Origin: Arthrobacter cheniae
GTDB lineage: Bacteria; Actinomycetota; Actinomycetes; Actinomycetales; Micrococcaceae
Assembly: GCF_003602275.1 (NCBI RefSeq)
Contig: NZ_QZVT01000003.1
Span: 62,001 to 126,000, forward strand
Length of the DNA: 64,000 nucleotides
Direction: 5' to 3'
Shown here: positions 8,770 through 12,784 of the stretch, one piece after another
Layout: each line of letters begins with the position of its first letter
Position numbering within the stretch: position 1 is the stretch's first letter
Program-made: the position numbers and the translations under genes
Notes under the pieces: model-generated
Seen by the model: only the letters and a program-made list of their open reading frames with translations
What the model was told of the DNA's origin: nothing
The model's database searches: none

Positions 8770-9765
8770 TTAGCGTCTGGCCTGTTGTTCTGTCGAAAGC
8801 AGGCCGCGTGCGCGGTCGACGTCGAGCTTCATCTGCTCGATGAGTGCCTCCGGGCCCGTGTACGTCACCTGGCCACGCAACCGTTCCACGAACTCGACGA
8901 CGACAGCCTGCCCGTAGAGGTCGAAGTCCTGCACCCGCTCCGGGGGACGATTGATGACGTGCGCCTCCACCTGGCGGTCGACGCCGTCGAAGGTCGGATT
9001 CGATCCTACGGAGATCGCCGCCGGCCACCTCGTCCCGGCCTCGTCGATGAGCCAGCCGGCATAGATCCCGTCCGCGGGGATGAAGCCCTGCGATGATGCG
9101 GCGAGGTTCGCGGTCGGGTAGCCGAGCTCACGACCGCGCGCTGCCCCGTGGACCACGTCCCCGCGCATGCGGTGGTGGCGGCCGAGTATTCGGGCGGCTG
9201 TGCCGACGTCACCGGCCTCCAGGGCTTCCCGCACCCAGGTCGACGAGCACCGCCGATCGCCGTCCGCGTCCGTCGCGGCCATGGGATAGCTCGTACCGAA
9301 GTCGTCGATCGCGATGACCTCGAAGCCGAGCTTCCGGCCGAGCTCGCGCATGGTCTCGATATCCCCGCTGTTGCCCCTGCCGAAGCGCACGTCGTGACCG
9401 ATGACGACGGCTCGGGCCTTCAGTGCGCGGACGAAGACCCGCTCCACGAACTCCTCGGGTGTGTTCGAGGCAAGCTCCAGGGTGTAGTGCATCATCAGCA
9501 GAGCGTCTATACCGGTGCCGGCGAGTGTCTCGACGCGATCATCGAGACCCATGATCAGCTCGGGTGCGGAGTCCGGCCGGTGGACCTGCGCCGGGTGCGG
9601 ATCGAAGGAGACGACGACCGCGGCGGCGGAACGCTGCCGCGCCGCTTCCACGACCTGCTGCAGCACTCGCAGGTGGCCCCGATGCACTCCGTCGAAGTTG
9701 CCCAGCGTCAGGACGGAGGGCCCGAAATCCTCGGGCACACTGTCCAGGTCTCTCCAGTAGAACAC
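8770..9765 (-). CDS. ribF: Bifunctional riboflavin kinase / FAD synthetase
   Basis: 331 residues. The N-terminal FMN adenylyltransferase domain has LTLGNFDGVHRGH near residues 20-32, the nucleotidyltransferase HxGH-like motif. The C-terminal flavokinase domain starts about residue 185 with ILGRHHRMRGDVVHG and contains GRELGYPTANL. It makes FMN and FAD from riboflavin in the cytoplasm. It is linked to truB and rpsO in most actinobacteria. Here about 2.2 kb of accessory genes on both strands separate it from the 122/159-residue membrane-protein genes that follow truB. Confidence 0.95.
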   Translation of the reverse strand: MFYWRDLDSVPEDFGPSVLTLGNFDGVHRGHLRVLQQVVEAARQRSAAAVVVSFDPHPAQVHRPDSAPELIMGLDDRVETLAGTGIDALLMMHYTLELASNTPEEFVERVFVRALKARAVVIGHDVRFGRGNSGDIETMRELGRKLGFEVIAIDDFGTSYPMAATDADGDRRCSSTWVREALEAGDVGTAARILGRHHRMRGDVVHGAARGRELGYPTANLAASSQGFIPADGIYAGWLIDEAGTRWPAAISVGSNPTFDGVDRQVEAHVINRPPERVQDFDLYGQAVVVEFVERLRGQVTYTGPEALIEQMKLDVDRARGLLSTEQQARR

Positions 9766-10018: not shown

Positions 10019-11908
10019 ATGAGTATGCGACACCTCGATCCACCCGATCCCGCGCCACTTCCTGCCCCTCCCTCCCGGCGAAGTCCGGGGCGGGTCACTA
10101 CCGTCACCCTTCTGCTCGCCCTCCTCCTGGGCCTGGCAGGGATGGCTCCCGCGGCCGCCGGCCCCGTATCCGGTGGCTGGCATACCGGTGCGGGCGTCGT
10201 CGGCACCGGGTACTTCGTGGGGCAGCACCGGAATGCCGAGGGCCTGATCGCGTACTGCACCGACTTCGAGCGCTTCTCACCGGACCGGGCGTCGGGCTAC
10301 GGCGACGGAAACACCGGGCCGTTCGTCCGGAGTGACGGGTCCGCCCTGTCCACCGAGGACAACGCGATCCTTGCTTTCGTGCTCGGCCGGTGGGGAGCGA
10401 CTGCGGATGACGACGAGGCAGCGGCGGTCCAACTCGCCGTATGGTCGCTGACCGCGGTCGGGATGGGCTGGGACACTCCCGCCATGACGAAATTCATCCT
10501 CGAACAGGGCCTGACTCCTGATCTTGCGCTCCGCGCCAGATCCATGGTGGACGAGGCACGGACCGGGGCGGGGCCCTACAGCATCTCGGCTGCCTTCGTG
10601 CCCGAGGAGTCCCATGGTGAGGTGCGTACCGCAGTGCTCGCGGCCGATGGAACCACACGTGCCGGGCACAGGCTCCGGGCGGTCGTGGACGGCGCGACTT
10701 TCGCGGACGGCACGACGACGGCCGAATGGACGAGCACCACCGAGCAGCAGGTGCTCGAACTTCGGCGGACCGGGTTCGGGACGGCGCGCGTCACGATCAC
10801 CGCACCTGCCGTGCCCGCTGCCAATGCAGCCTGGCTGGCACCGCGCGAAGCCGACGTGCAGCGGCTCGTCGTGGCCCCTCTCACCGCGGAGGTCGCCGCG
10901 TCCGTGGACCTTCCCGCATCCACGGGGTTCACGCCCGCGGTCATCACGGCGACGTCCGCCGCACGCACCTCGCCGGGTACTCCTGTTCTCGATGTGCTCG
11001 AGGTGTCTGCTGCCGGCCCCGAACCGTGGCTGGTGGATCCCTCGAGCGATACGCCTGTCGCACTGGACGTCGTATCGACCCTTTGGGGTCCGCTGCAGTC
11101 CGCTCCCTCCGAGGGGGCTGGCGTACCGGACGGAACTCCGTCCCTCGGTACCGTCACGACCGCGGTATCGGGGCCCGGCCGGTATGAGACGCCGTCGCTC
11201 GTCGTGGGCACGGCAGGCTATTACGTGTGGACCGAGAGCATCGATCCGAAGACTGCCCGTCCAGCGGCGGCGGCATCACTCATCGCTCCATGGTCCGGAA
11301 GGTTCGGACTGGCTGCCGAGACGACGCTGGTCCCGTGGGAGCCCTCGCTGTCGACCAGGCTCTCGCACTCTTCGGCGCTCCCTGGAGCAGTTCTGCAGGA
11401 CACGGTGACAGGGGACGGCTTCAGCCCGCCCGATGACGGCAGTCTGGTGCGGCTGACGATGTTCGGCCCGCTCTCGGAGCCACCGGTCAAATCGCCGGAG
11501 GTACCTGCGGAAGCCACCGTCCACTCGATCATCACGGTGCCGGCGATGAACGGCGTCACCATCTCGGGCGACTTCGCTCCCCTGCACCAGCCCGGCTGCT
11601 ACACCGTCGTCGCCTCGTTCGAGGGCTCCGACGAGGAGATGCCGTTCACGTCATCCTTCGGCATACCCGCCGAGACGGTCTGCGTCGACGCGCAGCCGAT
11701 GCAGCCCGAAGCTGCAGAGCCCCCAGCAGCACCCGTGCCGTCAGCGGCAACGCAGGCTGAACCGTCCCCATCTCCCGCCGCGGGGATCGCCCAGCCGCAC
11801 CTCGCCACGACGGGAATCAGAGCCACTGCGGCGGCCGGGGTCGGGCTGATGATCGTGGGAATCGGGATGGGCCTCCGGCTGCTGGCTCGGCGGCGGAATG
11901 CCGGCTAG
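10019..11908 (+). CDS. Cell-wall-anchored surface protein with thioester-type domain and LATTG sorting signal
   Basis: 629 residues. Residues 1-47 form a signal peptide (Arg-rich stretch, then a TTVTLLLALLLGLAG core and an Ala-x-Ala-like site). An N-terminal domain follows with YCTDFE (Cys80) and AAAVQLAVW (Gln138). This Cys/Gln pairing and spacing resembles the thioester (TED/TQXA) domains of Gram-positive adhesins, which form an internal Cys-Gln bond. Next come several beta-rich, Ig-like repeats and a Pro/Ala/Ser spacer from about 560. The C-terminus has LATTG at 595-599, a hydrophobic span and ARRRNAG, a class-E-type (LAxTG) sortase signal. No sortase is in the window. It is inverted relative to the housekeeping genes around it. 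The start is uncertain (ATG 10019 or 10025; no clear Shine-Dalgarno). Confidence 0.72.
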   Translation: MSMRHLDPPDPAPLPAPPSRRSPGRVTTVTLLLALLLGLAGMAPAAAGPVSGGWHTGAGVVGTGYFVGQHRNAEGLIAYCTDFERFSPDRASGYGDGNTGPFVRSDGSALSTEDNAILAFVLGRWGATADDDEAAAVQLAVWSLTAVGMGWDTPAMTKFILEQGLTPDLALRARSMVDEARTGAGPYSISAAFVPEESHGEVRTAVLAADGTTRAGHRLRAVVDGATFADGTTTAEWTSTTEQQVLELRRTGFGTARVTITAPAVPAANAAWLAPREADVQRLVVAPLTAEVAASVDLPASTGFTPAVITATSAARTSPGTPVLDVLEVSAAGPEPWLVDPSSDTPVALDVVSTLWGPLQSAPSEGAGVPDGTPSLGTVTTAVSGPGRYETPSLVVGTAGYYVWTESIDPKTARPAAAASLIAPWSGRFGLAAETTLVPWEPSLSTRLSHSSALPGAVLQDTVTGDGFSPPDDGSLVRLTMFGPLSEPPVKSPEVPAEATVHSIITVPAMNGVTISGDFAPLHQPGCYTVVASFEGSDEEMPFTSSFGIPAETVCVDAQPMQPEAAEPPAAPVPSAATQAEPSPSPAAGIAQPHLATTGIRATAAAGVGLMIVGIGMGLRLLARRRNAG

Positions 11909-12627
11909 TCGCGCTGGGCGAACTCCTTGCGCATCGCACTCGTCTTGGCAATGTACTTGTGCCACACGAGCAGGGCCGGTGGGAAGGCGAGCTCAACAAC
12001 CATCAGGACGATCATGACGTAGTTGGGAGTCCCCGAAAAAGCCCAGGACAGCACCCGCCCGATTCCCCCGATGAACACCATCAGGCAGACCAGCCACAGC
12101 ATGTTCGCCCACTCGAATTTGATGGCGATGGTGATGAACGCCGCTCCGACGCCGACCATCATGGCCGAGAAGAACCGGAACTGGTTCTCCAGTGTCGGAT
12201 TGACCGGGCTGGCCTCGGTATCCGGCAGACCCGCGGTGCCGAGGATCAGGTAGTAGGCACCGAAGCCGGCGATGACCAGTCCCACCAGCACGACGACGGT
12301 ACGGAATACGTTCCAGTCACCACCCGAGCTTGCCTTTCCGGCTTTCTTGACCTTGTCACCGGCTTTGCCCTTCGCCTTGTCCCTTGTTCCCCCAGTGGAC
12401 GGAGCGCCGGCTCCGGCACCAGCCGACACGTTGCCCGATGATGACTGGCCGGTGCGCGGCAGGGAGGACGCCGTCGACGTGGCCGGTGGGTTGCCCGTCC
12501 GGCCGGGCTCCCGTGAAGGAGCTCCGGAGGAACGGACACCCGCCTCGTTGAAGCCGCGGGGATCGGACGACGCCGGCCGTCCGCTCGCCGCGGAGGAGTT
12601 GTCGTGCTCGGGATTGTTGCTGGTCAT
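11905..12627 (-). CDS. DUF4345-like membrane protein with disordered N-terminus
   Basis: 240 residues. The first 100 are low-complexity and rich in Ser, Gly, Pro and Lys, probably disordered and cytoplasmic. They are followed by four hydrophobic segments. ENQFRFFSAMMVGVGAAF is typical of DUF4345 proteins, whose function is unknown. The chosen ATG at 12627 has AGGAG just upstream; an ATG 12 codons earlier is less likely. The TAG stop overlaps the stop of the convergent surface-protein gene through CTAG at 11905-11908, leaving no intergenic terminator. Confidence 0.65.
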   Translation of the reverse strand: MTSNNPEHDNSSAASGRPASSDPRGFNEAGVRSSGAPSREPGRTGNPPATSTASSLPRTGQSSSGNVSAGAGAGAPSTGGTRDKAKGKAGDKVKKAGKASSGGDWNVFRTVVVLVGLVIAGFGAYYLILGTAGLPDTEASPVNPTLENQFRFFSAMMVGVGAAFITIAIKFEWANMLWLVCLMVFIGGIGRVLSWAFSGTPNYVMIVLMVVELAFPPALLVWHKYIAKTSAMRKEFAQRD

Positions 12628-12784
12628 GTCGCTCCTGAAGGCCGAATGGTGCTTTAGCGTCATGATCTCACGGGGCAGGCCGCCGCTGTTGGCGATTTCC
12701 CCGGGTTGGGGTGATCGTGGGTAGCAGCTACCGCGGGTGGCCGCACCGCTCGCTGCCGGCTGCGCTCCCCCTGACCCGACGACG

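Follow-up and report, generated by a model that had tools for sequence, protein, structure and literature searches.

A probable wall-anchored adhesin of Arthrobacter cheniae with a divergent class II-like thioester domain and a predicted Cys80–Gln281 bond

A gene on the forward strand of a 64,000-nucleotide stretch of the Arthrobacter cheniae genome (contig NZ_QZVT01000003.1, positions 62,001 to 126,000; hereafter referred to as the window, in whose numbering all coordinates are given) raises the question of whether its product is a surface protein with an internal Cys–Gln thioester and, if so, which glutamine forms the bond. The initial annotation had proposed a thioester adhesin of this kind, with Cys80 and Gln138 as partners and a class-E sorting signal. 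Our analysis makes it highly probable that the protein is a wall-anchored adhesin with a divergent class II-like thioester domain (TED), a Cys80–Gln281 thioester, a tandem stalk and an LATTG anchor.

The coding sequence (10019..11908, plus strand) starts with ATG and encodes 629 amino acids. It is not a chance reading frame, since 10 other genomes of the genus have, at the corresponding site, a homologous frame uninterrupted by stop codons; its assignment also draws on the positions of the motifs. Whole-gene pairwise dN/dS was 0.23 and 0.28 against the homologues L006 and L007, respectively, values that are rough because synonymous sites are near saturation. A promoter scan found no promoter. 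The motifs listed by the initial annotation were found where it had placed them, each in one copy: YCTDFE at residue 79, VQLAVW at 137 and LATTG at 595. The signal peptide (residues 1–47; 10019..10159), likewise as described, was recognized by eye from a hydrophobic run and an AAA/GP cleavage site near residue 47. The TED, delimited by profile comparison and alignment, spans residues 48–294 (10160..10900). Cys80, within YCTD (10256..10258), is its sole cysteine, the others in the protein being Cys527 and Cys555.

To see which residues of the N-terminal domain are conserved, we collected homologues. Searching the proteins of 97 relatives, we recovered the gene from 18 genomes, that of A. cheniae among them. 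Eleven belong to the same genus, one to a different genus of the family and six to the order. We aligned the N-terminal domains of 24 sequences, with a mean column identity of 29%. Exactly two columns were invariant, those of Cys80 and of Gln281, which lies in VQRLV (10859..10861). In 11 of the 24 rows the conservation of Gln281 was not selected for, because the search model (L033–L036, L039–L041; ending at residue 195) or the matched stretch (the plasmid sequences L130, L131, L132 and L139; ending at or before residue 222) stopped short of it. Six plasmid records matched the domain, none over more than 80% of its length, and four of them were taken in. We left out L042–L044, which are false matches and HisS by sequence, L021 and L024, whose stretches contain no TED region, and L037, which comes from the same genome as L022. 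The wider alignment A5 was made without the near copies L038, L013, L014, L016 and L017, and retained the close relatives L025/L041 and L130/L131/L139.

A class-wide scan covering 394 genomes gave 23 matches. We examined 18 new loci, among which three matches without a locus do not figure; the false matches L191–L193 were set aside, as was L190, a different TED-like protein with its Cys region outside the stretch, and 14 loci had the domain. Both residues were present in 12 of the 14 and both were lost in the other two, a single residue being kept in none. The glutamine sites of L182, L188 and L189, where the automatic alignment slipped, were located by eye and then by string match. The two loci that lack the pair, L183 and L185, belong to one genus and retain the domain with Cys replaced by Val and Gln by Arg, which suggests a non-covalent descendant. 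Because of these two sequences, it must be accepted that a TED can exist without the bond, and one may ask whether the window protein is likewise an ordinary, non-covalent surface protein with a degenerate TED fold. We regard this as improbable: the fold can persist without a thioester, but the window protein and all 24 aligned homologues have both residues, and no other column is invariant.

We then considered which glutamine would be the partner of Cys80. The initial annotation had assumed a short TED, with a bond between Cys80 and Gln138 (10430..10432) inside residues 50–190. The order of the motifs fits such a quick reading, and Gln138 is present in 13/13 members of A1, an alignment of closer relatives. 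It is, however, the glutamine of the TQxxPhiW-type helix motif, which is reported to be non-essential for the thioester (PMC4450167, PMC6194298); in solved TEDs this glutamine adjoins the cysteine, with no bond between the two. Moreover, the 24-sequence alignment retains Gln138 in 12 rows and Trp142 in 13, and the 12 homologues with Asp, Ala or Ser in the Gln138 column all have Cys80 and Gln281; two of these sequences, L025 and L041, have a Gln a few residues from the column that may be misaligned. A Cys80–Gln138 bond is thus very unlikely. The proposal of a thioester domain stood, on the strength of the profile comparisons below and of the invariant Cys80, and the choice of Gln138 did not. 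The spacing that had been called as expected applies to the wrong glutamine, the Cys80–Gln281 distance being 201 residues, and the suggested fold range of 50–190 would leave the bond-forming strand with Gln281 outside.

Cys80 and Gln281 are, most likely, the thioester pair. YCTD corresponds to the TED cysteine signature, [YFL]C followed by a hydrophobic and a hydrophilic residue, with Thr in the third place being weakly hydrophobic, and VQRLV corresponds to the glutamine signature PhiQzetaPhiPhi. VQLAVW has the Gln and Trp of TQxxPhiW, a motif found in most but not all TEDs, with Val in place of Thr. Invariance of the Cys and the Gln has been published for TEDs (PMC4450167, PMC6194298). According to Walden et al. 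2015, class II TEDs often have no obvious Gln motif (PMC4450167), so that the prediction of Gln281 rests more on conservation, including the joint loss with Cys in L183 and L185, than on the motif.

The distance between the two residues also bears on the class of the domain. It is 201 residues in the window protein and 192–220 across the 24 homologues. Published residue numbers give 129, 152 and 153 for the class I domains of CpTIE, SfbI and PnTIE (PMC4450167) and 171, 195 and 204 for the class II domains of SaTIE, BaTIE and EfmTIE86 (PMC6194298); for the TED of plasmid pLS20, the modelled spacing is 188 (PMC8092201). Judged by this measure, the window protein fits class II (171–204) and not class I (129–153). 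In three plasmid homologues, Big_1 Ig-like matches (E 5e-7 to 3e-6, below the Pfam cut-off) fall between the Cys and the Gln, at the site of the beta-sandwich that class II TEDs carry, as a slipknot, between helix 3 and the Gln strand. From the spacing and these matches we infer that a beta-sandwich is inserted between the helical part and Gln281, approximately at residues 196–270 (10604..10828).

Recognition by existing models was poor. The initial annotation had suggested PF08341 as a check, and this model matched neither the window protein nor any other protein of its genome; at E 1 the window protein had no Pfam match at all, PF20610 included, and NCBIfam scans of it gave nothing relevant. 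Among 17 aligned members including the window protein, four touched PF08341 (best E 0.036) and one PF20610 (E 0.077). The accepted class II TED of pLS20 itself passes the Pfam cut-offs narrowly, with 28.8 against 27 and 23.6 against 22 bits, and we therefore take the Pfam miss as a limit of the models. Whether Pfam detects a TED is a practical criterion and not a chemical one.

Profile-to-profile comparison was more informative. With hhalign, the family matched surface proteins encoded on four plasmids, three from Streptomyces and one from Cutibacterium, with a probability of 99.4% over 232 columns. Against eight PF08341-positive actinomycete proteins the probability was 89.8%, or 92.1% with A5, aligned on the Gln motif; against seven pLS20-type TEDs it was 39.4%, or 74.7% with A5, aligned on the Cys motif. 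In none of these comparisons did any of 100 column shuffles score as high as the real alignment, the highest shuffle probability being 1.77%, and reversed alignments gave 0.06–0.41%. A global profile alignment with the pLS20-type TEDs was poor (1.4%), yet it paired the QRL motifs. Known sets of TEDs match one another poorly (1.1–2.6%), so these probabilities are no strict measure. In the PDB, the TED of EfmTIE86 (6FWY) was the top match of alignments A1, A2 and A4, with E values of 0.067, 0.012 and 0.026 that are weak on their own. With A5 an attaching-and-effacing protein, a designed protein and a phage tail protein came ahead of it, leaving it fourth of 11 (E 0.16), and the TED 6FX6 ranked seventh; a search with the single protein gave chance-level matches alone. 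The absence of a PF08341 match, the weak PDB matches and the two homologues without both residues count against the main reading. That the protein is an unrelated surface protein, whose Cys and Gln serve another use such as metal or ligand binding, is nevertheless very improbable: direct hits to solved TEDs by sequence are weak, but the profiles match PF08341-positive and pLS20-type TEDs far better than the shuffles do, and the Cys and Gln motifs and the class II spacing are present.

The TED is followed by a stalk in which residues 300–441 (D1; 10916..11341) and 440–557 (D2; 11336..11689) are two copies of one domain, as indicated by a profile comparison of the two (99.0%). D2 contains Cys527 and Cys555, between which a disulfide is possible. 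Profiles of T-Q ester domains matched the stalk with probabilities of 0.2% and 30%, and a stalk of that type is not supported. The whole protein has three Lys, none of them in the conserved columns of the stalk, which makes a classical isopeptide stalk unlikely. The columns that are invariant in 17/17 members include Pro306, Thr310, Gly320 and Asp325, and Glu434 is kept in 16/17.

The C-terminus has the features of a class-E sortase substrate: LATTG at residues 595–599 (11801..11815), found by motif search, and after it a hydrophobic segment and a basic tail, ARRRNAG (11816..11905). An LAxTG signal is present in 11/11 members of the genus (LATTG and LARTG once each, LAETG twice and LAQTG seven times), always with a hydrophobic segment and basic residues behind it; the sorting site of L026 is an LARTG upstream of its last LxxTG. 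Class-E sortases are described as recognizing LAxTG (PMC5148588). Five sortases are encoded in the A. cheniae genome, one of which (L001) is of class E, scoring 229.6 bits with NF033747 against a cut-off of 160; for the remaining four the best-scoring class is F, with one above the cut-off. Both the class-E sorting signal and the sortase expected elsewhere in the genome were thus found as the initial annotation had anticipated, and the protein is probably anchored by this enzyme. A class-E sortase above the cut-off occurred in 11/11 genomes with the TED gene and in 12/27 others of the genus (Fisher, 0.0022). A kinship-aware test offered two supported independent pairs, and random pairings gave 1.2 in which the sortase changed the same way and 0 in which it changed the opposite way; the link between gene and sortase, not significant once relatedness is counted, is suggestive. 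At three places in the same genome (L002, L003 and L004), a secreted protein is paired with a class F-like sortase, and the three pairs resemble one another.

We next addressed how the gene came to its place. On one side lies ribF (8770..9765, minus strand; FAD synthetase/riboflavin kinase), and on the other, also on the minus strand, are three small membrane genes, the first of which encodes a DUF4345 protein (11905..12663), followed by truB; these assignments derive from Pfam and neighbourhood comparison, with the ORF listing for the DUF4345 gene. The TED gene converges tail-to-tail with the DUF4345 gene, and the stop codons of the two share one CTAG (11905–11908). The order truB-memC-memB-memA-ribF is constant in the 37 readable genomes of the genus (of 38; G032, in which ribF is near a contig end, was left out), and in 11 of the 37 the TED gene stands inverted between memA and ribF. 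On the tree of the neighbours, this pattern of presence requires at least four changes, two of them forced by starred branches. The window protein, L084 and L109 form a starred group in the TED tree, and their genomes fall in one starred group of 19 in the neighbour tree, 16 of which have no TED gene. Seven of the other eight carriers group in the TED tree (91), with L097 unplaced, and the neighbour tree joins all eight (94). The single site and the broadly matching trees point to an old resident that was lost several times, and a long residence with repeated loss is the more likely history.

The gene is inverted, as the initial annotation had noted, and lies between ribF and the DUF4345 gene; the suggestion that it had been acquired there is not supported, the same site being used in two groups of the genus and the gene tree broadly resembling that of the neighbours. 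The GC content of the gene is 69.4% against 68.3% for the window, its GC3 is 0.79 against 0.81–0.84 in three neighbours, and the repeats around it are short and imperfect. The domain had no match in phages and no confirmed match in viral contigs. Taken with the site shared in 11/37 genomes, these results do not support a recent transfer. In G041, G281 and Leifsonia, no match to ribF or truB was found in the 13–19 kb around the gene. One record titled Vibrio cholerae strain 35D (L007; WNZI01000016.1) has the Arthrobacter-type order truB-memC-memB-memA-TED-ribF-rpsO with 58–100% identity, and is a mislabelled or contaminated assembly.

Compared with the class II TEDs of known structure (BaTIE, SaTIE and EfmTIE86; PDB 6FWV, 6FX6 and 6FWY), the window protein shares the [YFL]C, TQxxPhiW-type and late Gln motifs, the spacing (201 against 171–204), the N-terminal position behind a signal peptide and a sortase anchor. 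It differs in a sequence that is barely recognizable, in an LAxTG anchor, in a stalk not recognized as isopeptide or T-Q ester domains and, going by the records, in a gene that is not on a pathogen chromosome. TIEpLS20, the conjugation adhesin of the Bacillus plasmid pLS20, is also of class II type and has YQRLM, whose Q is the glutamine of the modelled bond, where the window protein has VQRLV. Its Cys is reported to be required for efficient conjugation, and its stalk was modelled as CnaB-type (PMC8092201). Its gene is plasmid-borne in a conjugation operon, in contrast to the location of the window gene between ribF and the DUF4345 gene.

The same N-terminal domain, with the Cys and the late Gln, is found in the Streptomyces plasmid proteins L130, L131 and L139 ('SpaA isopeptide-forming pilin-related') and the Cutibacterium protein L132 ('VaFE repeat'), which differ from the window protein in having Asp at the Gln138 site, a SpaA or T-Q ester stalk and an adjacent sortase gene. 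On the linear Streptomyces plasmids, the gene for the TED–SpaA protein is followed by the sortase gene, regulator genes flank the two, and the TED part goes unnamed in the records. On the Cutibacterium acnes plasmid p11-79, a gene for a TED and T-Q ester (VaFE) protein (L132:3833-8158) precedes a class F sortase gene, and a conjugal transfer gene lies two genes beyond the sortase, an arrangement that recalls the pLS20 mating adhesin. A PT-repeat surface protein beside a sortase is mentioned in a 2017 paper on Cutibacterium plasmids of this kind (PMC5696575). The PF08341-positive actinomycete proteins L113–L119 and L121, which we infer to be Streptomyces-like, have YC together with TQVAIW-type and QTQIL-type motifs, most of them sharing the order seen in the window protein, and L113–L118 have LAxTG ends; unlike the window protein, they have a clear PF08341 match and another stalk, and L121 has no Cys. 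Divergent TEDs are already well established: five TED-like clusters, several of them class II, were reported when the fibrillar adhesins of Firmicutes and Actinobacteria were surveyed (PMC9210967). Covalent thioester adhesion is described mainly from pathogens, in addition to the Bacillus plasmid (PMC4450167, PMC6194298, PMC8092201). Our literature search found no paper naming both Arthrobacter and 'thioester domain' and, among the titles listed, none describing the family of the window protein.

If the main reading is correct, the signal peptide would direct export of the protein, and the divergent class II-like domain (residues 48–294), with its beta-sandwich inserted between the helical part and Gln281, would close an internal thioester between Cys80 and Gln281. 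The class-E sortase would cleave LATTG and tie the protein to peptidoglycan, and the two-copy stalk (residues 300–557) and a Pro/Ala-rich linker would keep the TED away from the cell. An amine of a target, probably of a Lys, could then attack the thioester to give an isopeptide bond between Gln281 and the target, as shown for streptococcal SfbI.

A wider proposal, possible but on balance doubtful, is that these proteins belong to an actinobacterial branch of class II-like TEDs that escapes the standard models and whose members occur both on chromosomes and on plasmids of Streptomyces and Cutibacterium. Instead of attaching cells to animal hosts, the proteins of this branch may weld them covalently to other bacteria or to environmental polymers, in mating or aggregation. 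Under the same proposal, the Lys-poor tandem stalk, in which Thr310 and Asp325 are invariant and Glu434 is nearly so, may hold an undescribed cross-link. The replacement of Gln138 by Gln281 as the predicted partner decides which constructs and mutants would be informative, and a profile for actinobacterial TEDs missed by PF08341 could be built from the alignment of 24 sequences. A TED conserved in a soil-type genus, and probably anchored by a class-E sortase, would offer a harmless system in which to seek a non-host target of thioester chemistry.
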